Assembly: GCF_036347135.1 (NCBI RefSeq)
Contig: NZ_CP108938.1
Span: forward strand, 6,448,001-6,512,000
Source: Streptomyces sp. NBC_00775
GTDB lineage: Bacteria > Actinomycetota > Actinomycetes > Streptomycetales > Streptomycetaceae
DNA: 64,000 nucleotides
Reading direction: 5' to 3'
Shown here: positions 1 to 51,844 of the stretch, in pieces
Numbering within the stretch: position 1 is the stretch's first letter
How the letters are laid out: every line of letters begins with the position of its first letter
The notes under the pieces: generated by a model
The model's database searches: none
Told to the model about the DNA's origin: nothing
Seen by the model: the letters and a program-made list of their open reading frames with translations, nothing else
Position numbers and translations under genes: made by a program

Positions 1-797
1 GTCCAGGCGCCGCCCTTGGGGGCCGGGCCCTGGGGGAGGTCCGCGAGGGACTTCAGCGAGAGCAGCTTGAGGCCGCGCTCGGCGCCGAGGAAGTCCGCCA
101 CGAAGTCGTCCGCCGGGTGGGCCAGCAGCTCCGCGGGCGTCGCGCACTGCACCAGATGGCCGCCGGTGCGGAAGATCGCGATCTGGTCGCCGAGCCGTAC
201 CGCCTCGTCGATGTCGTGCGTGACGAAGACGATGGTCTTGCTCAACTCCTTCTGGAGGCGAAGGAGTTCGTCCTGGAGCTGGGTGCGCACGACCGGGTCG
301 ACCGCGCCGAAGGGCTCGTCCATGAGGAGGACGGGCGGGTCGGCGGCGAGCGCGCGGGCGACGCCGACGCGCTGCTGCTGGCCGCCGGAGAGCTGGTGCG
401 GGTACCGCTTCCCGGCGTCGGCGGCCAGGCCGACGGTCTCCAGGAGCTCGGCCGCCCTCGCCCGCGCCTTCTTGCGGCCCCAGCCGAGGAGGAGCGGCAC
501 GGTGGCGATGTTGTCGAGCACCGTGCGGTGCGGGAAGAGCCCCGACTGCTGGATGACGTAGCCGATGGAACGGCGCAGCTCGGCCGCGTCCTGTTCCAGG
601 ACGTCCTTGCCGCCGACCCGGATGGTGCCGGAGGTCGGATCGACCATCCGGTTGATCATCCTGAGGGTGGTCGTCTTACCGCAACCGGAAGATCCGACGA
701 GGACGGTCACGCCGCCTTCCGGCATTTCCAGGGAGAGGTCGTGGACGGCTGTCGTGCCGTTCGGGAAGCGCTTGTGGACCGTATCGAACTGGATCAT
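1..797 (-). CDS. Betaine/proline-type ABC transporter ATP-binding protein (3' end outside window)
   Basis: This is the ATPase subunit of a quaternary-amine (glycine betaine/proline/choline) importer, which energises uptake of osmoprotectants at the inner face of the membrane. Starting at the ATG whose complement is at 795-797, the protein has Walker A GSSGCGKTT at residues 35-43, a Q-loop YVIQQSGLFPHRTV, the signature LSGGQQQR, Walker B VLLMDEPFGAVDP and the switch histidine in FVTHD. The IDEAVRLGDQIAIF stretch after the H-loop is typical of the OpuCA/ProV group, and the substrate class is inferred from this overall resemblance. About 265 codons are visible and the C-terminus, possibly with CBS domains, lies outside the window. 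It is transcribed away from the lyase-like gene across a 142-bp gap. Permease and binding-protein genes would be expected beyond position 1. Confidence 0.85.
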   Translation of the reverse strand, partial: MIQFDTVHKRFPNGTTAVHDLSLEMPEGGVTVLVGSSGCGKTTTLRMINRMVDPTSGTIRVGGKDVLEQDAAELRRSIGYVIQQSGLFPHRTVLDNIATVPLLLGWGRKKARARAAELLETVGLAADAGKRYPHQLSGGQQQRVGVARALAADPPVLLMDEPFGAVDPVVRTQLQDELLRLQKELSKTIVFVTHDIDEAVRLGDQIAIFRTGGHLVQCATPAELLAHPADDFVADFLGAERGLKLLSLKSLADLPQGPAPKGGAW

Positions 798-816
798 GAG
801 GTGTCCCTTGCCCGGT

Positions 817-834
817 CTGCATATCGTCATGCAG
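817..834. promoter_or_regulatory. Inverted repeat in the divergent intergenic region
   Basis: CTGCAT-N6-ATGCAG is a perfect 6-bp inverted repeat just upstream of the ABC ATPase start and inside the divergent gap to the lyase-like gene. The placement suits an operator. The neighbouring RpiR-type regulator is one candidate binder, but this is inference only. Confidence 0.35.
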
Positions 835-939: not shown

Positions 940-2517
940 ATGTCGTCTCGAATTATGGACACGGCGCATGCGGTGACACCCCCGGCGTCGGTCGGTCTCG
1001 TGGTCCTGGACGGACGCAGCACCGGGGTCGAGGACGTCGTACGGCTCGCCGACGGGGCCGCGCGGCCGGTGCCCGGCACCGATGCGATGAAGCGCGTCGA
1101 GGAGTCCTGGGACGCGGCCCGGCAGATCGCCGCGACCGGCCGCGTCTATGGCCGCTCCACCGGCGTCGGCGCCAACCGGAACGAGGACGTGCCCACCGAG
1201 GCCGCCGCGGGGCACGGTCTGCGGCTGCTGCGCAGCCACGCCGGCGCCATCGGCGAGGAGCTTCCCGCCCGCCAGGTCCGGGCGATGCTCGCCGTCCGCG
1301 CCAACCAGCTCCTCGCCGGCGGCGCGGGCCTGCGCCCCACCGTCGTGACGGCGCTGTGCGAGGCGCTGGAGGCGGGGGTGTATCCCGTCGTGAACGAGTT
1401 CGGGTCCGTGGGCACCGGCGACATCGCGGCGCTGGCGCAGGTCGGCCTCGCGCTGGCGGGTGAGCACCCCTGGCGGGGGCCGGAGGGCGGGCACTCCCTC
1501 GCGGACCTCGCCCTGGAAGGCGGGCGTTCCCCGCAGGACCTCGCCCCCGAACCCCAGGCCCTCGACAACAACGACGCCCTCGCGCTCATCAGCAGCAACG
1601 CGCTCACCCTCGGGCAGGCGGCGCTTGCGTTGCACGAGCTGCGCGGGCTCATCGGGGCCACCCAGGTCGTCGCCGCGCTGTCGCTGCTGGCCGTCGACGG
1701 GTCGCACGAGGCGTACGCGGCGCCCGTGCACGCCGCCCGCCCGCACCAGGGCTCGGTGGAAGTGGCCCGCCGGATGCGGGAGTTGATCGGCGCCGCGGAC
1801 CGGCCGACGCCGCCGCTCGGGCGGATCCAGGACCCGTACGGTTTCCGGTGCGTCCCACAGATCCACGGCCCGGCGCACGACGCCGCGGACGCGCTCGAAG
1901 GGGTCCTCGCCGTCGAGATCAACGCCGCCGCCGAGAACCCCCTCATCTCCCCCGAGGACATGGCCGCGTACCACCACGGCGGCTTCTACCAGGCCCAACT
2001 CGCCCTCGCCCTGGACCACTTCAGGCTGGCGGTCACCCAGGTGGCGCGTCTGTCGACCTCGCGGCTCTCCACCCTCAACGAGCCCGCCTACACCCGGCTG
2101 CGCCCCTTCCTCGCCGACCACGAGCCCGCCTCGTCCGGCGTGATGATCCTCGAGTACGCCGCCGCTGCCGCCCTCGGCGATCTGCGGGCCTTCTCCGCAC
2201 CCGCCTCGCTCGGGCACGCTGTACTCTCCCGGGGCGTCGAGGAGCAGGCGAGCTTCGCCTCGCTCGCCGCACGTCAGACACTGCGGGCGTGCGGTGCGTA
2301 CCGTCTCGTCGTCGGCTGTGAACTGGTGGCCGCCGTACGGGCGCTGCGCCAGCGCGACCTGCGGCCCGAACCGGAACTGCCGGCCGGCCGCGCGCTGGAG
2401 CTGGCCGAGTCGGTGCTCGAACCGGACCAGGCCGACCGCCCGCTCACGGACGATGTGACGGCGGCGGCCGCACTGCTCGACCGGTTCACGGACATCTGGA
2501 GGGGGAGCGCGTCATGA
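940..2517 (+). CDS. Histidine/aromatic amino acid ammonia-lyase-like protein with altered MIO motif
   Basis: This is a member of the HAL/PAL lyase superfamily of about 525 residues, similar in length to bacterial HutH. Visible family features are the YGRSTGVG loop near residue 70 (Tyr position), the SHAGAIGE helix, an Asn-containing ISSNALTLG segment, QDPYGFRCVPQIHG (Tyr and Arg positions), ENPL, and EQASFASLAARQT near the C-terminus. The cofactor segment reads GSVGTGD at residues 155-161 (1402-1422), where the family has GSVGASGD. One residue is missing and with it the serine that becomes dehydroalanine in the MIO group. Ordinary ammonia-lyase activity is therefore doubtful. I prefer ATG 940, which sits about 10 nt after GGGGAG; TTG 931 and ATG 955 are alternatives. 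Its stop overlaps the next gene as ATGA, so it is co-translated with a MurR/RpiR regulator. Confidence 0.85.
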   Translation: MSSRIMDTAHAVTPPASVGLVVLDGRSTGVEDVVRLADGAARPVPGTDAMKRVEESWDAARQIAATGRVYGRSTGVGANRNEDVPTEAAAGHGLRLLRSHAGAIGEELPARQVRAMLAVRANQLLAGGAGLRPTVVTALCEALEAGVYPVVNEFGSVGTGDIAALAQVGLALAGEHPWRGPEGGHSLADLALEGGRSPQDLAPEPQALDNNDALALISSNALTLGQAALALHELRGLIGATQVVAALSLLAVDGSHEAYAAPVHAARPHQGSVEVARRMRELIGAADRPTPPLGRIQDPYGFRCVPQIHGPAHDAADALEGVLAVEINAAAENPLISPEDMAAYHHGGFYQAQLALALDHFRLAVTQVARLSTSRLSTLNEPAYTRLRPFLADHEPASSGVMILEYAAAAALGDLRAFSAPASLGHAVLSRGVEEQASFASLAARQTLRACGAYRLVVGCELVAAVRALRQRDLRPEPELPAGRALELAESVLEPDQADRPLTDDVTAAAALLDRFTDIWRGSAS

Positions 2518-3404
2518 GCATGGACAGGAGCACGGGCGTGGACGGGGACGGGGACAGGGACATGGGTGTGACGGACAGTCCCGCCGCGCGGCTTCAGGCG
2601 CTCTTCGAGGGGCACCGGCTGACGCCGACCCAGCGGCGCATCGCGCACAGCATGGTGCGGCGCGCCGGCGACGTGCCGTTCCTGTCCAGCGTCGAGCTGG
2701 CCGAGCTCGCCGGGGTCAGCCAGCCCTCGGTCACCCGCTTCGCGGTCGCGCTCGGCTTCGACGGCTACCCCGCGCTGCGCAAGCACCTGCGTGAGGTCGC
2801 GCCCGCCGAACCGGCCGTGGACACCGCCTCGTACAACGAGTACCAGCAGGCCGTCGAGGCCGAGATCGAGAACCTGAGGCATCTCGCGGAGGTGCTCGCC
2901 GACCCGCGCCCGGTCGCCAGGGCGGGCCGGCTGCTCGCGGCGTCCCGCCCGCTCCCGGTGCTCGGCCTGCGGGCCGCGGCCTCCCAGGCGTACGGCTTCG
3001 CCTACTTCGCCGCCAAGGTCCACCCCGACGTACGGCTGCTGCACGAGAGCGGCACGATGCTCCAGGACCGTATCGACGCGGCGGTCCGGGCCGGGGCGAG
3101 CGCCCTGCTGTGCTTCGCCCTGCCCCGGCACCCGCGCGAGGTCGTGGACTCGCTGGCATACGCGAAGGAGGCCGGGCTGACCGTCGTCACGGTCGCGGAC
3201 TCCGCCTTCGCGCCGGTGGCGAAGGTGTCGGACCTGCTGCTCCCCGCCGCCGTCGGCACCGGCCTCGCCTTCGACACGGCCTGTGCCCCGATGCTGCTGG
3301 GCCGCGTCCTGCTGGAGGCGATGTGCGACGACCTGCCGGACGCGCAGGCACGGCTGGAGGAGTTCGACGCGCGGGCCGCCGCACGGGGTCTGTTCGTGGA
3401 GTAG
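2514..3404 (+). CDS. MurR/RpiR-family transcriptional regulator (HTH + SIS domain)
   Basis: A 296-residue regulator with an N-terminal HTH_6 domain (about residues 20-100; helix-turn-helix around LAELAGVSQPSVTRFAVALGF) and a C-terminal SIS sugar-isomerase-like sensing domain (about 130-270). The SIS part shows LGLRAAASQAYGFAYFAAKV and a second strand-turn ending in VTVADSAFAPVAKVSDLLL. Proteins of this family usually sense a phosphorylated or small metabolite and control adjacent catabolic genes. It is translationally coupled (ATGA) to the lyase-like gene, so both probably respond to the same ligand. The ligand is not evident; in this setting an amino-acid or urocanate-like compound is as plausible as a sugar phosphate. 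No partner transporter lies downstream. Confidence 0.85.
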   Translation: MSMDRSTGVDGDGDRDMGVTDSPAARLQALFEGHRLTPTQRRIAHSMVRRAGDVPFLSSVELAELAGVSQPSVTRFAVALGFDGYPALRKHLREVAPAEPAVDTASYNEYQQAVEAEIENLRHLAEVLADPRPVARAGRLLAASRPLPVLGLRAAASQAYGFAYFAAKVHPDVRLLHESGTMLQDRIDAAVRAGASALLCFALPRHPREVVDSLAYAKEAGLTVVTVADSAFAPVAKVSDLLLPAAVGTGLAFDTACAPMLLGRVLLEAMCDDLPDAQARLEEFDARAAARGLFVE

Positions 3405-6630: not shown

Positions 6631-6869
6631 CCGCCGGACACCGAGGCCTCGCGGGAGCCGTCCGTCGGAGGTCGAGGCTCTGTGGGAGGCGGCCTGTCGG
6701 GGGCGAGGGGTGCGCCGGTCCGCCGGAGGCCGAAGGTTCGTGGGAGTCGGTGTCCGCCGGAGGTCAACGTCCCACGGGAGCCGGTCCGTCGGAGGGTGAA
6801 GGCCCGGGGGAGCCGGCCCGGCGGGGCGAAGCGCAGGGCGCGCCCGTCTGGCGGAGGCTAAAGGCCCGT
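6631..6869. repeat. Degenerate ~31-bp tandem repeat, about 8 units
   Basis: Units starting near 6631, 6662, 6693, 6720, 6754, 6786, 6817 and 6848 share the frame CCGYCGGAGG-N3-GAAGG-N5-GGGAGYCGG with spacing of 27-34 bp, most often 31. A unit of 31 is not a multiple of three and the copies are diverged, so this is not a coding repeat. The last unit overlaps the final codons and stop of the decarboxylase-like gene (6858-6860). Confidence 0.7.
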
Positions 6870-8243
6870 CAGTGCCGACGGCTGTGCCCCGCCCGACTCC
6901 GCGACGATCTCGTCGAGGGTCTGCGGCTCCCGTGCGACCGCGAAGCGCACCCCGCCCTCCCCGTCCGGTGCGAAGCCGTAAATGCCCGGCCGGGCGAGGG
7001 AGTTGTACGCGTAGTGGTGGGCGAAGTAGTACGCGCCCGTGTCCAGCGCCGCCGCGTAGTCGCCCGGTTCGAGCAGGGGCAGTGCGCGCCCCTCGGCGAG
7101 CAGGTCGCCCGCGAAGCAGGCGGGGCCCGCGATGTCCTGGACGACGTCCGGTCCCGCCTTGGGCCGGCCTTTCGCGTCGTACGCGGCGATCCGCAGCGGC
7201 CAGGACGCGGGCGCGTACACCGTGCGGGCCGCCACCTGCACGCCCGCGTGCGTGACCGCGACCGCCCGGCCCCCGGCGGACTTCGTGTACTCGACCCGTG
7301 CGAGCACCGTCCCGTGCTTGGCGAGCAGCGACCGCCCGAACTCGGTGACCAGCCCGTACCGCCCGTCGAAGAGCCCGGGCACCGACTCGGCGAGCAGCCG
7401 CGCGTACTGGGCGTACGTCGGGCCCGTCGCCTCCGAGCCGAAGTTCACCGGCAGCCCGCCGCCGATGTCGATCGTGTCGACCTGCCGCCGCCCGAGCCGC
7501 CGGTTGATCTCCTCGGCCAGCGCGTACGTCTCCGCCACGCCCCGCGCCATCAGCGAGAGCGGCATGCCCTGCGACCCGGTGTGCGCGTGCAGCCGGGTCA
7601 GCCACGGGCGGTCGGCGTACGCCCCGACGATCCACTCCCGCGCGCCCTCGTCCCGCAGTGCAACGCCGAACTTGGAGGTCGCCGTGGCGGTGGACAGCGC
7701 CTCGATGGAACCCCCGCCGATCTGCGGGTTCACCCGGATTCCGAGGGGGGAGCGGGTGTTCGCGGACCGCACCAGGCCGTCGATACGGTCCAGCTCCTGC
7801 GGATTGTCCGCGTTGACCGCGATCCCCAGCGTCAGCGCCTCACGCAGTTCGGCGGGCGTCTTGGCGGGGGAGTCGAGCACGGTGCGGGCCGGCGGCACCC
7901 CGGCCGCCCGGGCGAGGGCGAGCTCCCCGGGGCTCGCCACCTCCGCGCCGATGCCCTGCTCGTACAGCAGCCGCAGCACGGGCACGAGCGGGGTCGCCTT
8001 CACCGCGAAGGCGTGCAGCACGGGGGTGCCGGGAGCGGTCACCGTGTCGAAGGCGGCCCGCAGGGAGGCCGCCGAGGCCCGGATGCCGGGGACGTCGAGG
8101 AGCGCGACGATGGGGGTTCCCGGCCCGACGAGCCCTTGCTCCAAGGCGGCCCGGACGGCTTCGTCGCGCCGGGCGACGCGGTCGGAGCCCTCCTTGTCCC
8201 AGCCGTGCGAAGACACCCCGGACCTGCCCGCCGCGTCGCCCAT
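6858..8243 (-). CDS. Fold-type III PLP decarboxylase, diverged diaminopimelate/amino-acid decarboxylase family
   Basis: A 461-residue enzyme of the LysA/ornithine-decarboxylase-like fold. The N-terminal barrel shows LLDVPGIRASAASLRAAF, the PLP lysine in HAFAVKATP, EVASPGELALA, LGIRVNPQIGGG, the phosphate-binding HTGSQGMP and DIGGGLPVNF. The C-terminal half has GPACFAGDLLAEG, carrying the catalytic cysteine where DapDC reads GPxCESGD, and a YYFAHHYAYNSLARPG region that differs from the usual substrate Tyr/Asn segment. These changes suggest a substrate other than meso-diaminopimelate, although the reaction (PLP-dependent alpha-decarboxylation) is likely kept. I start at the ATG complementary to 8241-8243, with GGGGA 8 nt upstream. 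It is divergent from hutU across about 190 bp and may share that control region. Confidence 0.75.
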   Translation of the reverse strand: MGDAAGRSGVSSHGWDKEGSDRVARRDEAVRAALEQGLVGPGTPIVALLDVPGIRASAASLRAAFDTVTAPGTPVLHAFAVKATPLVPVLRLLYEQGIGAEVASPGELALARAAGVPPARTVLDSPAKTPAELREALTLGIAVNADNPQELDRIDGLVRSANTRSPLGIRVNPQIGGGSIEALSTATATSKFGVALRDEGAREWIVGAYADRPWLTRLHAHTGSQGMPLSLMARGVAETYALAEEINRRLGRRQVDTIDIGGGLPVNFGSEATGPTYAQYARLLAESVPGLFDGRYGLVTEFGRSLLAKHGTVLARVEYTKSAGGRAVAVTHAGVQVAARTVYAPASWPLRIAAYDAKGRPKAGPDVVQDIAGPACFAGDLLAEGRALPLLEPGDYAAALDTGAYYFAHHYAYNSLARPGIYGFAPDGEGGVRFAVAREPQTLDEIVAESGGAQPSALTGL

Positions 8244-8321
8244 CGGATTCCCCGTCCTGTCCCTGTCCGCACCCATACATCCCAGCGAAACACCCACGAC
8301 GTGGCCGCGCTGGCCCCATGC

Positions 8322-8429: not shown

Positions 8430-10094
8430 ATGTCAGGACCCCGCCCCGTACGAGCGCCGCGCGGTACGGAACTGAGCGCCCTGGGATGGCAGCAGGAAGC
8501 CGCCCTGCGGATGCTGCAGAACAACCTCGACCCCGAGGTCGCCGAGCACCCCGACAAGCTCGTCGTCTACGGCGGCACCGGCAAGGCCGCCCGCGACTGG
8601 CGCTCCTTCGACGCCATGGTCCGCACGCTGCGCACCCTGAAGCAGGACGAGACGATGCTCGTCCAGTCCGGCCGCCCCGTCGGCGTCATGCAGACCCACG
8701 AGTGGGCCCCGCGCGTCCTCATCGCCAACTCCAACCTCGTCGGCGACTGGGCGAACTGGGAGGAGTTCCGCCGCCTGGAGGCCCTCGGCCTCACCATGTA
8801 CGGCCAGATGACCGCCGGTTCCTGGATCTACATCGGCACGCAGGGCATCCTCCAGGGCACCTACGAGACCTTCTCCGCCGTCGCCGCCAAGAAGTTCAAC
8901 GGCACGCTCGCGGGCACCATCACCCTGACCGCCGGTCTCGGCGGCATGGGCGGCGCCCAGCCGCTCGCCGTGACGATGAACGACGGCGTCGCGATCTGTA
9001 TCGACGTCGACCCGCGCGCCATCGAGCGCCGCATCGAGCACCGCTACCTCGACGTCAAGGCCGACAACCTGCGGCACGCGCTGGAGCTGGCCGTCGAGGC
9101 ACGCGACGCCCGCAAGCCGCTCTCCATCGGCCTGCTCGGCAACGCGGCCGAGCTGCTCCCGCAGATGCTGGCCGAGGGCGCCCCCATCGACATCGTGACC
9201 GACCAGACCTCGGCCCACGACCCGCTGGCCTACCTCCCCGTCGGCATCGACTTCGACGACATGGCCGACGCTGCCGCCAAGGACCCGGCGGGCTTCACCA
9301 CCCGCGCCCGTGAGTCCATGGCCAAGCACGTCGAGGCGATGGTCGGCTTCATGGACGCCGGCGCCGAGGTCTTCGACTACGGCAACTCGATCCGCGGCGA
9401 GGCCCAACTCGCCGGATACGAGCGGGCGTTCGCCTTCCCCGGCTTCGTCCCCGCCTACATCCGCCCCCTCTTCTCCGAGGGAAAGGGCCCCTTCCGCTGG
9501 GCCGCCCTGTCCGGCGAGGCCTCCGACATCCACAAGACCGACAAGGCGATCCTCGACCTCTTCCCGGAGAACGAGTCCCTGCACCGCTGGATCAAGATGG
9601 CGGGGGAAAGGGTCCACTTCCAGGGCCTGCCCGCCCGTATCTGCTGGCTCGGCTACGGCGAGCGCGACAAGGCCGGCGAGCGCTTCAACGACATGGTGGC
9701 GTCCGGCGAACTGGCCGCCCCCCTCGCCATCGGCCGCGACCACCTCGACTCCGGCTCCGTCGCCTCGCCCTACCGTGAGACCGAGGCCATGCTCGACGGC
9801 TCCGACGCGATCGCCGACTGGCCCCTCCTGAACGCCATGGTGAACGTCGCCTCCGGCGCCTCCTGGGTCTCCATCCACCACGGCGGCGGCGTCGGCATGG
9901 GCCGCTCCATCCACGCCGGCCAGGTCTCCGTCGCCGACGGCACCAAGCTCGCCGGCGAGAAGCTGCGCCGCGTGCTCACCAACGACCCCGGCATGGGTGT
10001 CATCCGGCACGTTGACGCCGGGTACGACATCGCGAAGTCGGTCGCCGACGAGCGCGGCGTGCGCGTGCCGATGCGCGAGGGTGGCGAGGCGTGA
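8430..10094 (+). CDS. hutU: Urocanate hydratase
   Basis: Converts urocanate to 4-imidazolone-5-propionate with tightly bound NAD, as the second step of histidine catabolism in the cytosol. The 554-residue length is normal for the family. Near-invariant segments are [11 protein letters not shown] (residues 48-58), [12 protein letters not shown], a glycine-rich NAD-binding [19 protein letters not shown], the catalytic cysteine in [15 protein letters not shown] (about residue 410), and [15 protein letters not shown]. The start is fixed by AGGAGG 6 nt upstream. It is the first gene of the hut operon and its stop overlaps the next GTG (GTGA). Regulation is probably by the inverted repeats in the upstream promoter. 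Confidence 0.97.
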
Positions 10095-11401
10095 CCCTTC
10101 CGGGAGATGAGCGGCGCGGCAGCCGTCCGGCCAGGGCGGACGTCTCGTCGCCGGGTGCGGGTCCGGCTGCGGCCGGCAGCTCGTTCCACGAGATGTGGCG
10201 CGAGCTGCTCCCCATCGGCAGGCACTCCGACTCCGGTGGCTACCGCCGCTTCGCCTGGACGGCTGCCGACGCCGAATGCCGGGCATGGTTCCGGGCGCAG
10301 GCGGAGTCCCGCGGGCTGACCTACGAACTGGACCGCAACGGGAACCAGTGGGCCTGGCTCGGGGATCCCGCCGAAGGGGACGCCGTCGTCACGGGGTCGC
10401 ATCTGGACTCCGTGCCGGACGGCGGGGCGTTCGACGGGCCCCTCGGGGTCGTGTCGTCCTTCGCCGCGCTGGACGAACTGCGCACCCGGCAGGTGGAGTT
10501 CACCCGGCCCCTCGCCATCGTGAACTTCGGTGACGAGGAGGGCGCCCGGTTCGGGCTGGCCTGCGTCGGGTCGCGGCTCGCCGCCGGACAGCTCACCGTC
10601 GAACAGGCGCACCGGCTCACGGACGGCGACGGCGTCACGCTGCCGCGGGCCATGGAGCGCGCCGGGTACGACCCCGACACCATCGGCCCGGACCCCGAGC
10701 GGCTCGGCCGGATCGGGGCCTTCGTGGAGCTGCACGTCGAGCAGGGGCGCGCCCTCGACCTGAGCGGCGACCAGGTCGGCATCGCGAGCGCCATCTGGCC
10801 GCACGGCCGCTGGCGGTTCGACTTCCGGGGCGAGGCCAACCACGCGGGCACCACCCGGCTCGTGGACCGCCGCGACCCGATGCTGTCGTACGCGGAGACG
10901 GTGCTGGCCGCCCGCCGCGAGGCCCAACTCGCGGGCGCCGTGGCCACCTTCGGCAAGATCTCCGTCGAGCCGAACGGCGTGAACGCCATCCCCTCCCTCG
11001 TCCGCGGCTGGCTCGACTCCCGCGCCGCCGACCAGACGGCCCTCGACACGGTCGTCACCGGCGTCGAGAAGGCGGCCCGCGAGTACGCGGAGGCGCACGG
11101 CGTCGAACTCGACGTCGTCCGCGAGTCGTTCACCCCCGTCGTGGAGTTCGAGCACGCCCTGCGCGACGAGCTCGCCCGCATCCTGGGCAAGGACCAGCAC
11201 GCGGGACTCACGGTCCCCGTTCTGGGCACGGGTGCCGGACACGACGCCGGAATCCTCTCCGGCACCGTCCCGACCGCCATGCTGTTCGTACGCAACCCCA
11301 CGGGTGTCTCGCACTCCCCGGCCGAGTACGCCGCCGAGGACGACTGCGTGGCCGGGGTGACCGCACTCGCCGACGTACTCGAAGGGCTGGCCTGCAGGTG
11401 A
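10091..11401 (+). CDS. M20-family amidohydrolase (allantoate amidohydrolase-like), candidate N-formylglutamate hydrolase
   Basis: A 436-residue dinuclear-metal hydrolase of the peptidase M20 / N-carbamoyl-amino-acid hydrolase group. Metal-site segments are [17 protein letters not shown] (His and Asp), [11 protein letters not shown] (Glu pair), ELHVEQG (His) and [11 protein letters not shown] near the C-terminus (His). Databases usually label such proteins allantoate amidohydrolase. Here it sits between hutU and hutF in one coupled operon. Histidine breakdown through N-formylglutamate needs a deformylase after HutF and no HutG is present, so this enzyme is the natural candidate. It could instead act on formiminoglutamate or be a true carbamoyl amidase. 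GTG 10091 overlaps the hutU stop. Confidence 0.85.
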
Positions 11402-12732
11402 CGCAGACGTACTGGCTGGAACACGCCTGGCTCGACACCCACGTCGAGCCGGGCGTGGCCCTGGAGGTGGCGGACGGCCGCATCACCGCCGTCCGCACGG
11501 GCGTCGACACCCCGCCCCCGGGCGCCGAGATCCTCCGCGGACTCACCCTCCCCGGGCTCGCGAACGCCCACTCGCACGCCTTCCACCGCGCCCTGCGCGG
11601 CACCGTCCAGGTCGGCTCCGGGACCTTCTGGACCTGGCGCGAGATCATGTACTCCTTCGCGGACCGGCTGACCCCGGAGACCTACCACGCGCTCGCGCGC
11701 GCCGTGTACGCCGAGATGGCGCTGGCCGGCGTCACGGCCGTCGGTGAGTTCCACTACGTGCACCACGCCCCGGGCGGCACCCCGTACGCCGACCCCAACG
11801 CGATGGGCGAGGCGCTGATCGCCGCCGCCGCCGAGGCCGGAATCCGTATCACCCTCCTCGACACCGCCTACCTCTCCGCCGGCTTCGGACAGCCGCCCAA
11901 CCAGCACCAGCTGCGCTTCTCCGACGGCACGGCCGACGCCTGGGCGGAACGCTGTTCAGTTCTCAAGGACCGGGATCACGCACGGATCGGTGCGGCCATT
12001 CACTCCGTACGGGCCGTGCCCGCGGGGCAGTTGGCGACGGTCGCGCGCTGGGCCGAGGAGCGGCGGGCCCCGCTGCATGTGCATCTGTCCGAGCAGACGG
12101 CGGAGAACGACGCCTGCCAGGCCACGCACGGCTGCACACCCACCCGGCTGCTCGCCGACCACGGTGTCCTCGGACCGCGCACGACCGGCGTCCACAACAC
12201 GCACCTCACGGACGAGGACATCGCCCTGATCGGCGGCTCCGGGACGGGCACCTGCATGTGTCCGACGACGGAGCGGGATCTGGCGGACGGCATCGGCCCC
12301 GCGGTCGCTCTCCAGAAAGCGGGCTCGCCGCTCTCCCTCGGGTCCGACAGCCACGCCGTCATCGACCTCTTCGAAGAGGCCCGCGCGATGGAGCTGAACG
12401 AGCGCCTGCGCACCCGCACCCGCGGTCACTGGACGGCGGCCGCCCTGCTGCGCGCCGCCTCCGCCGACGGCCACGCGGCCCTGGGCTGGGCCGACGCGGG
12501 CATCCTGGAGCCGGGCGCGCTCGCCGACTTCACGACGATCGCCCTCGACTCGGTCAGAACAGCGGGACCGCTGCCGCGCCTCGGTGCCGAGACGGCCGTA
12601 TTCGCCGCGACGGGAGCCGACGTACGCCATACGGTCGTGGCCGGCCGGCACGTCGTACGCGACGGTGAGCACACCCTCGTACCGCAGGTGCCGACGGCTC
12701 TCGCGGACGCCATCGACGCCCTGCGCGCCTGA
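11398..12732 (+). CDS. hutF: Formimidoylglutamate deiminase
   Basis: An amidohydrolase-superfamily enzyme of 444 residues that hydrolyses N-formimino-L-glutamate to N-formylglutamate and ammonia. The metal-binding HxH is in [16 protein letters not shown] (about residues 55-70). Other family marks are the FTWREIMY segment, [20 protein letters not shown] (metal His plus catalytic Glu), [12 protein letters not shown] and [10 protein letters not shown] (metal Asp). The start GTG overlaps the upstream stop (GTGA), so it is translationally coupled. Its presence implies the five-step pathway that ends in formylglutamate rather than direct formiminoglutamase. Confidence 0.92.
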
Positions 12733-12797
12733 CGCCCAGCAGCACGCCCGCGCGGCTCACCCCCGCCCGCCGCAGCCCGAGCCCCCACGAGGACGCC

Positions 12798-13994
12798 ATG
12801 AGCAGCAGGACCAGCACGACCAGCACGAACACGCTCATCACCAACATCGCCAGCCTGGTCACCAACGATCCCTCCCTCGGTGACGGATCCCCTCTCGGTC
12901 TGATCCAGAACGCGGCCGTCGTCATCGACGGCGACCGCATCGCGTGGACCGGTGAGAAAAGCAAAGCACCCGCCACTGACAATCAGGTCGACGCCGGTGG
13001 CCGCGCGGTGATCCCGGGCTTCGTCGACTCCCACTCGCACCTCGTCTTCGCGGGCGACCGCACCGAGGAGTTCAACGCCCGTATGTCGGGGCGCGGCTAC
13101 ACGGCGGGCGGCATTCGTACGACGGTGGCGGCGACGCGGGCGGCGAGTGACGAGGACCTGGAGCGCAACCTCGTCCACCACCTCGGCGAGGCCCTCCGCC
13201 AGGGCACCACCACCTTCGAGACCAAGTCCGGCTACGGCCTCACCGTCGAGGACGAGTCCCGTGCCCTGCGCATCGCGGCCGCGCACACCGACGAGGTCAC
13301 CTACCTCGGCGCGCACATCGTCTCGCCCGACTACGCCGACGACCCGGCCGAGTACGTGGCCCTGGTGACCGGCCAGATGCTCGACGCCTGTGTCCCGTAC
13401 GCCCGTTGGATCGACGTCTTCTGCGAAAAGGGCGCCTTCGACGGCGACCAGGCCCGCGCGATCCTCACCGCCGGCAAGGCGAAGGGCCTGCACCCGCGCG
13501 TCCACGCCAACCAGCTGTCGTACGGCCCCGGTGTCCAGCTCGCCGTCGAACTCGACGCGGCGAGCGCCGACCACTGCACGCACCTGACGGACGCCGACGT
13601 GGACGCGCTGGCGAACGGCAACACCGTGGCGACGCTGCTCCCCGGCGCCGAATTCTCCACCCGCGCCGAATGGCCCGACGCCCGCCGTCTCCTCGACGCG
13701 GGCGTGACCGTCGCCCTGTCCACCGACTGCAACCCGGGCTCGTCGTTCACCTCGTCCGTCCCGTTCTGCATCGCGCTGGCGGTACGGGACATGAGGATGA
13801 CGCCCGACGAGGCGATCTGGTCGGCGACGGCGGGCGGCGCGGCGGCCCTGCGCCGCACCGACATCGGCCGCATCACCCCCGGCGCCTACGCCGACCTGGC
13901 CTTCCTCGACGCCCCGAGCCATGTGCACCTGGCGTACCGGCCGGGCGTACCGCTCGTGTCGCGGGTGTGGCGGCGCGGAGTCCCGGTCGCGTAG
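12798..13994 (+). CDS. hutI: Imidazolonepropionase
   Basis: Opens the imidazolone ring of 4-imidazolone-5-propionate to give N-formimino-L-glutamate. The 398-residue amidohydrolase has the metal motif [12 protein letters not shown] (about residues 76-87), the substrate region [39 protein letters not shown] and the metal Asp in [11 protein letters not shown]. It starts at ATG 12798, 65 bp after hutF, with a GAGGA site upstream, and is the last gene of the operon. The N-terminal TSTTSTNT stretch is low-complexity and the true start could be slightly downstream. Confidence 0.95.
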
Positions 13995-50341: not shown

Positions 50342-50446
50342 GCCGGCAAGCGTACGCGGGGGCGGCGCGCGGGACCGGCCGCCCGCGCCACCGGTTCGGA
50401 CGAGCGCCCCCCGACGGTCCGTCAATTCCCCGATGGACAGATATGT

Positions 50447-51844
50447 ATGACTATGTCCACGATCGGGGGCATGCGCGGATTCCTTGCTTCCTCGGTCGGC
50501 GTCACCTGCGCGGCCGCACTCGCCCTTCCACTGGCCCTGACCGCCCCGGCGCAGGCAGAGCCCCCGGCGGGGACGTCCGAGCCGGCCGTCCCCGGCAGCA
50601 CCCAGTCCCTGCCGCTCGCCCCGCTCTCCGGCGAGCGCTCTCTCGGCTCCGCCGCGCCCGAACAGGGGCTCACGCGACGGGACGTACGGCCGTTCTCCCT
50701 GGTCGGTGTCGTCTGGGACAACCCGGACAGTGAGCTGTACGGACGCGTCCAGGTCCGTACCCGTACGGTCGCGAACGGCGACTGGTCCGGCTGGCAGGAC
50801 GTCGAGACGCACAACCACGAGCACGCGGCCGACCCGGACACCGCCGAGGGCGAATCGGGCCGGGTGCGCGGCTCCACGGCGCCCCTGTGGGTGGGGAACT
50901 CGGACGGCGTCGAAGTGCGCGTCCAGGCGGAGGAGGACGAGCGGGCGACGGCTCCGGGCGACTCGCCGCTCCCCAGGGGGCTCCACCTCGAACTCGTCGA
51001 CCCCGGCGCGGACGCCCCATCCGCGGGCGCACCGGTGGGAGACCTGCGCCTGAGCGCTCACGAGAGCGCCGGCATGGACGATTCGCGCTCCGGCGCACTC
51101 TCCCCCGAGGCCGCCGTCACGTCCGCCGTCAACGCCGATCTCGCGCCCCTCGGCGCCCTGGAGATCCCCGCGCTCTCCCAGGAGGAGACGGAGCGCGAAT
51201 TCCTCGCCGCACGCCGGGGCGAGCAGCGCGCGAAGCCGTACATCGGCGCACGCCCGCGCATCATCACGCGCCGCGGCTGGGGCGCGAACGAGAGCCTGCG
51301 CGAGCGCGGCTTCGTCTACACGAAGAAGGTCAAGGCCGCCTTCGTTCACCACACGGCCTCGGGCAACAACTACAGCTGCTCCCAAGCCCCTTCGGTCATC
51401 CGCAGTATCTACCGCTACCACGTGGTGAGCAGCGGCTGGCGCGACATCGGCTACAACTTCCTCGTCGACAAGTGCGGAAACATCTACGAGGGGCGCGCCG
51501 GGGGCGTGGCGAAGGCCGTCAGGGGCGCCCACACTCTCGGTTTCAACACCAACAGCATGGGGATCGCCGTACTCGGCACCTTCGGCAAGACGAAGCCGTC
51601 GAGTGCCGCAGTCCAAGCCATCGCGCGTCTCACGGCCTGGAAACTCGGCCTCTACGGAGCGAATCCGCGTGGCAAGACATACCTGACGTCGGGCGGTGGC
51701 AATCTCTACCAAAAGGGAAAGAGCGTGCGACTGAACGTGATCTCCGGCCATCGGGACGGATTCGCGACGGAGTGCCCAGGAAGGCTCCTGTACGGCAAGC
51801 TCGGTTCGGCCCGCAAGGCGGCGGCCCGCTACCAGGGACGGTAG
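50447..51844 (+). CDS. Secreted PGRP-type N-acetylmuramoyl-L-alanine amidase
   Basis: A 465-residue exported amidase. The signal peptide (about residues 1-35, FLASSVGVTCAAALALPLAL ending near AQAE) precedes a 200-residue linker/beta region. The C-terminal PGRP/amidase_2 domain (about 265-420) starts RIITRRGWGANESLRERGF. Zinc ligands are the first His of AFVHHTASGNNYSCS, His in NVISGHRDGFATEC and the Cys of that segment. The catalytic Tyr lies in DIGYNFLVDKCGNIYEGRAG. It cleaves the stem peptide from muramic acid. Two ATGs (50447, 50453) are close; 50447 has GGACAG upstream. It diverges from the TIGR03089 gene. Confidence 0.93.
   Translation: MTMSTIGGMRGFLASSVGVTCAAALALPLALTAPAQAEPPAGTSEPAVPGSTQSLPLAPLSGERSLGSAAPEQGLTRRDVRPFSLVGVVWDNPDSELYGRVQVRTRTVANGDWSGWQDVETHNHEHAADPDTAEGESGRVRGSTAPLWVGNSDGVEVRVQAEEDERATAPGDSPLPRGLHLELVDPGADAPSAGAPVGDLRLSAHESAGMDDSRSGALSPEAAVTSAVNADLAPLGALEIPALSQEETEREFLAARRGEQRAKPYIGARPRIITRRGWGANESLRERGFVYTKKVKAAFVHHTASGNNYSCSQAPSVIRSIYRYHVVSSGWRDIGYNFLVDKCGNIYEGRAGGVAKAVRGAHTLGFNTNSMGIAVLGTFGKTKPSSAAVQAIARLTAWKLGLYGANPRGKTYLTSGGGNLYQKGKSVRLNVISGHRDGFATECPGRLLYGKLGSARKAAARYQGR

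Follow-up and report, generated by a model that had tools for sequence, protein, structure and literature searches.

An actinobacterial lyase family related to ergothionase and lacking the MIO tripeptide, with hercynine as its most likely substrate

The window, a 64,000-nucleotide stretch of a Streptomyces genome, contains a gene for a protein of the histidine ammonia-lyase (HAL) fold, which overlaps a gene for an RpiR-type regulator and is faced by a divergent gene for an importer ATPase. The features are summarized in Table 1. The portion of the ATPase inside the window has TIGR01186 (proV) as its best NCBIfam match, with 311.3 bits against a cut-off of 326.6. The 3' end of its gene, two permease genes (PF00528 twice) and a binding protein gene (PF04069, C1:6445501-6446430) are situated just outside the window (C1:6445501-6447757), which makes the importer complete. 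In the Pfam search of the RpiR-type protein, HTH_6 is the only domain shown. The lyase module is separated by 6 kb from hutU-hutF-hutI. A pyridoxal-dependent decarboxylase gene (Orn_Arg_deC_N, Orn_DAP_Arg_deC; 6858-8297, minus strand) is located between the module and the hut genes, divergent from hutU. The first-pass annotation had assigned the lyase gene to an operon with the RpiR-type regulator rather than to the hut operon; the gene overlap and the position outside the hut operon agree with this, yet hutU, the M20-type gene, hutF and hutI are present in the same window.

Table 1. Features of the lyase locus and the neighbouring hut genes (window coordinates)
Feature	Position	Strand	Remarks
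OpuC/ProV-type (quaternary amine) ABC importer ATPase gene	1..830	-	divergent from lyase; PF00005
Palindrome TGCATATCGTCATGCA	818..833	.	divergent promoter region; candidate operator
MIO-less HAL-fold lyase, 528 aa	931..2517	+	start TTG 931 or ATG 940 or 955
Tyr equivalent to HAL Tyr53, in YGRSTGVG	1147..1149	+	kept in 364/364 rows without SGD
GSVGTGD in place of GSVGASGD	1402..1422	+	MIO tripeptide one residue short, no Ser
Ser-Ser-Asn replacing HAL Asn195-Gly-Thr	1591..1599	+	second change in common with ergothionase
rpiR-type regulator gene (HTH_6, PF01418)	2514..3404	+	overlaps lyase stop by 4 bases
hutU, urocanate hydratase	8430..10094	+	only copy found in genome; TIGR01228 899 bits vs 375
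M20-type amidohydrolase (NF006770), hut gene group	10091..11401	+	ErtE model NF058540 missed, 284.3 vs 520
hutF, formimidoylglutamate deiminase	11398..12732	+	
hutI, imidazolonepropionase	12798..13994	+	

In HAL, Ala-Ser-Gly at positions 142-144 is the precursor of the MIO electrophile. The corresponding codons of the window gene, GGG TCC GTG GGC ACC GGC GAC, are in frame within the open reading frame and encode GSVGTGD. Alignment with P. putida HAL places the deletion at residue 142 and puts Thr at 143 and Gly at 144; Ser143 of HAL is named in the reference list of PMC3903478. The MIO tripeptide (x-Ser-Gly; Ala-Ser-Gly in HAL), by which MIO-dependent HAL, PAL and TAL enzymes are recognized, is thus absent. 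Codons and alignment bear out the earlier reading of a loop that is one residue short and devoid of serine, and the flanks said to be retained, YGRSTGVG, QDPYGFRCVPQIHG and EEQASFASLAARQT, are all found.

A sequencing error restoring ASG, which the first-pass annotation had named as one of the points on which its reading could fail, was checked and is ruled out, because the same loop is carried by all of the best 120 of 3131 homologues (E<=0.001) and by a second gene of the same genome. The core VGTGDI is accompanied by SSN at 195-197 in each of these 120 proteins, the nearest being a Streptomyces protein with 98% identity, and the paralogue (C1:1518259-1519800), which is 57% identical to the window lyase, also reads GSVGTGD. 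Streptomyces paralogues in four further genomes (L066-L069; G107, G013, G110 and G111) match in two pieces, as if an extra segment were present near query residues 160-200.

The protein passes the Pfam model Lyase_aromatic (PF00221) with 396.4 bits against a gathering cut-off of 27.3. The database names of the best 120 of the 3131 homologues are variants of aromatic amino acid lyase or ammonia-lyase, apart from one hypothetical protein and entries without a name. Taken at face value, these names describe an ordinary ammonia-lyase or HutH, whose loop would then have to contain an error. Such a reading is very improbable: besides the loop common to all 120, the window protein reaches 315.6 bits with the HutH equivalog model TIGR01225, below the cut-off of 539.15, whereas the genuine HutH of the same genome (C1:3960569-3962026), a distant relative with CSG in its loop, passes with 706.1, and the tree described below also contradicts it.

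The wider family was compared in an alignment of 392 rows, of which 151 came from fetched loci, 240 from two protein searches (the ergothionase relatives being the best 120 of 1138) and one is a HAL fragment; matches with a span below 380 residues were excluded, and some genes are represented by two loci (L033 and L077 being an example). All 28 rows with SGD have Asn-Gly-Thr at 195-197. Among the 364 rows without SGD, the loop is one residue shorter in 363, Asn195 occurs in none, and Ser-x-Asn occupies 195-197 in 345. The single exception to the shortening is the second gene in L073, which reads VGAAGEI, and a serine lies within the shortened loop in 2 of the 363 rows (L165 and L093). The ergothionase-type rows have Asn197 in 120/120 and Ser195 in 112/120. 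The window protein carries both the loop deletion and S-x-N in place of N195-G-T, the marks of the MIO-less branch that contains ergothionase. The remaining active-site positions are highly conserved in the 364 rows: Y53, R283 and E414 are kept in every row, Q277, N313 and F329 in 363, and H83 in 362. The ergothionase group has Glu at position 143, with Gln or Ala as rare alternatives, where the window protein has Thr; the catalytic detail is therefore not identical to that of ergothionase. We also note that actinobacterial HutHs mostly have Cys-Ser-Gly rather than Ala-Ser-Gly at the MIO site (loci L003, L188-L196, L199, L200 and L202-L206), as seen in 15 of the 28 SGD rows and in 16 of the 19 best HutH-like rows of the genome survey.

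An unrooted tree of 61 rows hand-picked from the 392 was computed by a quick method with SH-aLRT values and no bootstrap, motif columns being included. A branch with a support of 100 parts the MIO-bearing HAL and TAM/TAL rows from the MIO-less rows. The latter comprise the ergothionase group, the clade of the window protein and a set of proteins reading GSVGQAD; one of the three rows of the TAM/TAL outgroup reaches the TIGR03832 cut-off. The 11 ergothionase-type rows form a clade of their own with a support of 100 and the window protein outside it; for the window clade in its entirety, the support is only 74. A single loss of MIO would be the simplest reading of this tree. The GSVGQAD proteins, a third MIO-less type with Ser-Ala-Asn, form a distinct clade (L077, L078 and L079, from G319, G308 and G361); all three are near OpuC-type importer genes, L078 and L079 are near an rpiR-type gene, and a urocanase was confirmed in L079.

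In a sequence search of solved structures, the third best match is the Treponema denticola ergothionase 6s7j, in which SSIGEGD is aligned with GSVGTGD without a gap. An AlphaFold2 model of the window protein has a pLDDT of 93.1, and Foldseek returned 6s7j chains as its top three matches (best E 3.6e-32; TM 0.88 and 0.91), with HALs close behind. VIA-align gave a near tie between tyrosine aminomutase (43.0), ergothionase (42.9) and HAL (41.8). Two ergothionase-type proteins scanned against NCBIfam showed no ergothionase model and also missed the HutH cut-off. Work by Maurer and colleagues from 2019 reportedly identified four essential catalytic residues in ergothionase. Ergothionase itself is described in PMC13405746 as a trimethylamine lyase that functions without MIO; the enzyme called “MIO-less” in PMC3903478 is an engineered mutant.

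The assignment of the window protein to the same MIO-less branch of the HAL/PAL fold as ergothionase is well supported, and the protein is almost certainly MIO-independent. One of the two possibilities raised at the outset, a MIO-independent enzyme, gains support from a whole family that lacks the tripeptide, groups with MIO-less ergothionase and keeps the other active-site residues. The second, that the protein merely senses or binds a ligand such as histidine or urocanate, to which a betaine may be added, would be in line with the loss of the electrophile and with the pairing with a transcription regulator gene. It is nevertheless improbable and not favoured, since the presumed base E414 is kept together with Y53 and R283 in all 364 rows and the partner is a solute importer; moreover, ergothionase, a characterised enzyme of the same branch, works without MIO according to PMC13405746.

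The family is widespread. Matches at E<=1e-70 were obtained in 60 of 121 genomes of the genus, the window's own included; the loop letters were read only in matches whose sequence was retrieved. Across the phylum, 22 of the 396 genomes sampled contain a match at E<=1e-60, but in four of them (G153, G294, G444 and G453) the matching protein has ASG. A role as a replacement for HutH is ruled out: a HutH-like protein with SGD and NGT is found besides the lyase in 19 of 19 genomes searched, and the lyase is therefore no substitute for HutH.

The gene neighbourhood was surveyed in 80 named loci out of at least 573 confirmed, and the counts that follow refer to this sample. The lyase has an rpiR-type gene nearby in 32 of the 39 loci from Streptomycetaceae and in 37 of the 80 overall. 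The RpiR linkage noted at the outset is thus real but belongs mainly to one clade. OpuC-type importer parts occur near 43 of the 80. Instead of an OpuC-type importer, an MFS transporter seems to accompany the lyase in L065, L125, L146 and L170 (Sugar_tr/MFS_1 confirmed for L146 and L170). The paralogue in the window's own genome has an OpuC-type binding protein directly upstream (L015, lyase at 12223-13803), with the ATPase and permeases about 5-8 kb off, beyond other genes. The presence of an importer beside both lyase copies would be unlikely by chance, because the genome of 11.1 Mb (11,096,612 bases, one contig) holds only 10 PF04069 matches.

hutU is located within about 9 kb of the lyase in 33 of the 80 loci, comprising 26 of 39 in Streptomycetaceae and 7 of 41 in other groups: Thermomonosporaceae 2/7, Streptosporangiaceae 2/4, Micromonosporaceae 1/1, Thermoleophilaceae 1/1, unassigned Actinomycetes 1/3, Pseudonocardiaceae 0/20 and the remaining 0/5. 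Absences of hutU and of the importer are partly due to short flanks, as 5 kb or more of sequence on each side is available for only 64 of the 80 loci. In Streptomyces, hutU is mostly downstream on the same strand at about 3-9 kb with other genes in between, not in one operon, and in L136 and L160 it is about 8 kb away on the opposite side of the lyase. The arrangement differs elsewhere. In Actinoallomurus, Actinomadura and one Streptosporangiaceae genome, hutU and hutH are found on the far side of the importer, hutI-hutF-M20-hutU-rpiR precedes the lyase in Sphaerisporangium, and hutU-hutH precedes it in Thermoleophilaceae. The GSVGQAD member of G361 (L079) is accompanied by a urocanase gene as well as by genes of the M20 and rpiR types.

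The corresponding models were run on ten linked hydratases: one from the window, one from L079 and eight from the 33 named loci that have hutU nearby. With 893-931 bits, all lie above the hutU cut-off of 375, and all miss the cut-offs for thiourocanate hydratase (642-678 vs 930) and S-methyl-thiourocanate hydratase (680-716 vs 880), the window protein scoring 648.3 with the former model (NF058530). Since the ten linked hydratases are urocanases, urocanate rather than thiourocanate is indicated as the product of the lyase.

The binding protein of the importer deviates from the residue set by which EgtU binds ergothioneine. At the positions of EgtU Gly244, Phe293, Tyr341, Tyr419 and Tyr443 it has Phe, Tyr, Phe or Asp (the alignments disagree), Phe and Gln, and Lys242 is replaced by Ala in an ungapped extension. 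Comparison of 38 binding proteins (the window protein, that of the paralogue and those of 36 named loci, matches of up to 600 bases or with an internal stop being left out) reveals the series Tyr, Asp, Asp, Glu, Arg, Phe, Gln in 33, the second and third positions being alignment-sensitive. The L074 binding protein comes near the canonical cage with Tyr, Asn, Tyr, Glu, Arg, Phe, Tyr. The pocket, in which the equivalents of Arg379 and Glu375 are kept, could also suit a less methylated or a plain amino acid.

These observations bear on the possibility that the lyase is itself an ergothionase, converting ergothioneine to trimethylamine and thiourocanate, which absorbs at 311 nm according to PMC11089744, and served by an OpuC-type importer acting like EgtUV. 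Within the MIO-less branch, ergothionase is the one characterised enzyme that our searches turned up, and actinobacteria are described in PMC7653990 as synthesising ergothioneine. Ergothioneine is nonetheless a less likely substrate, and the whole reading is improbable: the ten hydratases fall below both thiourocanate-type cut-offs and the M20-type protein of the window below that of ErtE, the binding protein has Phe at the invariant Gly244 of EgtU and Ala at Lys242, and position 143 of the lyase is Thr, not Glu.

Hercynine (N-alpha-trimethyl-L-histidine, or histidine betaine) is proposed as the substrate because it would join the betaine-type importer, the kept histidine pocket and the urocanase. 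In HAL, H83 binds the imidazole, R283 binds the carboxylate and E414 serves as the base. The equivalents of Y53, H83, R283, F329 and E414 are kept in the window protein; as H83, R283 and E414 are among them, an imidazole-propanoate skeleton should still fit the pocket. In the putative mechanism, the OpuC-type importer would bring in the substrate, H83 and R283 would hold the imidazole and the carboxylate, and E414 would take the beta proton. The amine would have to leave unaided by MIO, so that a quaternary trimethylammonium group, which could depart without the electrophile, would be suitable, as in ergothionase. The urocanate produced, a compound with a UV band near 277 nm, would then enter the hut pathway via HutU. 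Hercynine might also arise inside the cell, given one PF10017 (EgtD-family) match in the genome, but this is a weak sign of such synthesis, since the E. coli control is hit by this search as well.

Judged from the sequences and their genomic context, the protein probably acts as a lyase on an N-methylated histidine-type substrate. The more specific description, a MIO-independent lyase of the ergothionase kind rather than an ammonia-lyase, most likely converting hercynine to urocanate and trimethylamine, has in our estimate an even chance of being right. For hercynine in particular we would put the chance somewhat below even. Several observations count against this reading: the binding protein lacks the complete aromatic cage of known quaternary-amine binders, the Pseudonocardiaceae lyases have no hutU nearby, the Streptomyces hut genes mostly stand apart from the lyase, position 143 differs from that of ergothionase, VIA-align gives a near tie, and the window clade has a support of only 74.

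A lyase without MIO could instead act on another N-methylated or activated amino acid, such as N,N-dimethylhistidine or another aromatic betaine, with substrates that differ between clades. The transporter partner indeed varies by clade between an OpuC-type importer, an MFS protein and none seen, and the conserved acidic pocket residues of the binding protein suggest a ligand whose amine may be incompletely methylated. Within the 80 loci, hutU was not seen near any of the 20 Pseudonocardiaceae lyases and the importer is absent from 18 of the 20, and the substrate may therefore differ between clades; examples mostly without importer or hut genes are L098, L100, L103, L104, L105 and L107 (Lentzea, Prauserella). 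This alternative is nevertheless unlikely for the window protein. H83 belongs to an SH motif that, according to PMC3903478, marks HALs as opposed to PALs, and it is kept in 362 of 364 rows; linkage to hut genes recurs; and a less methylated amine would be a poorer leaving group without MIO.

With respect to regulation, the RpiR-type protein may control both genes through the palindrome TGCATATCGTCATGCA. The divergent promoter region appears by eye to be conserved in 27 relatives. The genome holds one exact copy of the palindrome and four with 2 mismatches, compared with three for a reversed control pattern. A 23-base extended form was found in 24 of 185 loci, some of which cover the same site twice. 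An operator in common was not seen at hutU, the only other match in the window within 3 mismatches being at 50444-50459.

If hercynine is the substrate, the family would break histidine betaine down to urocanate and trimethylamine. Soil actinobacteria with a dedicated importer would in this way feed the betaine into the hut pathway as urocanate and release trimethylamine. We tentatively regard hercynine trimethylamine-lyase, with an importer dedicated to this purpose, as a new MIO-independent activity that would be encoded in about half of the sampled Streptomyces genomes and in several other actinobacterial families. The genes for trimethylamine production in Streptomyces had not yet been cloned or mapped as of 2025 according to PMC12211087, and a candidate trimethylamine-lyase in the genus is therefore directly testable.

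A role in the trimethylamine of S. venezuelae “exploration” was considered and rejected. Genome G015 (8.2 Mb, one contig) has a single match to the lyase at E<=1e-5, a HutH that reads GSLGCSGD and is 33% identical. The chloramphenicol phosphotransferase of G015 matches PDB 1grq and companions with identity at 173 of 173 residues. The source organism of 1grq we take to be S. venezuelae, and G015 is treated as that species; on this assumption, the window-type lyase is not the source of S. venezuelae trimethylamine. The mere presence of a chloramphenicol phosphotransferase is no species marker, as PF07931 matches occur in 290 of 392 genomes.

The widespread, mislabelled family of MIO-less lyases of the ergothionase kind is real, and hercynine is its most likely substrate. 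This actinobacteria-wide family carries the name of ammonia-lyase for a chemistry that is almost certainly beyond its reach. The branch further illustrates how the HAL fold can work without its electrophile, ergothionase being the only described member found. The literature searched, largely outside subscription journals, yielded neither a MIO-less actinobacterial clade nor a hercynine lyase.

Comparison with known systems places the window lyase closest to ergothionase (6s7j), with which it shares the HAL fold, a loop shortened by one residue and without the serine of ASG, the S-x-N motif at 195-197, and Y53, H83, Q277, R283, F329 and E414; both also fall on one side of the tree. The two proteins differ in that their identity is about 25%, their clades are separate, and Thr takes the place of Glu143 in the window family. 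Moreover, the substrate of ergothionase is published, whereas that of the window lyase is predicted and the gene is linked to urocanase genes. With HutH (TIGR01225), the window lyase has in common the fold, the imidazole, carboxylate and base residues and the nearby hut genes. In contrast to HutH, it lacks the MIO tripeptide and Asn195 and scores below the HutH cut-off, and the genome has its own HutH elsewhere. The importer resembles the EgtUV/OpuC-type systems (Nat Commun 2022, PMC9732360) in its PF04069 binding protein of the ProX/EgtU type with the Glu375 and Arg379 equivalents kept; it differs from them in the Phe at Gly244 and in cage positions that are acidic or Gln in 33 of the 38 aligned proteins, so that the full aromatic cage is missing. 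Finally, the general scheme of a lyase followed by a hydratase would be shared with the ergothioneine degradation set (NCBIfam NF058530 and ErtE NF058540), whereas the hydratase and amidohydrolase of the window miss these two models and match those of hutU and NF006770.
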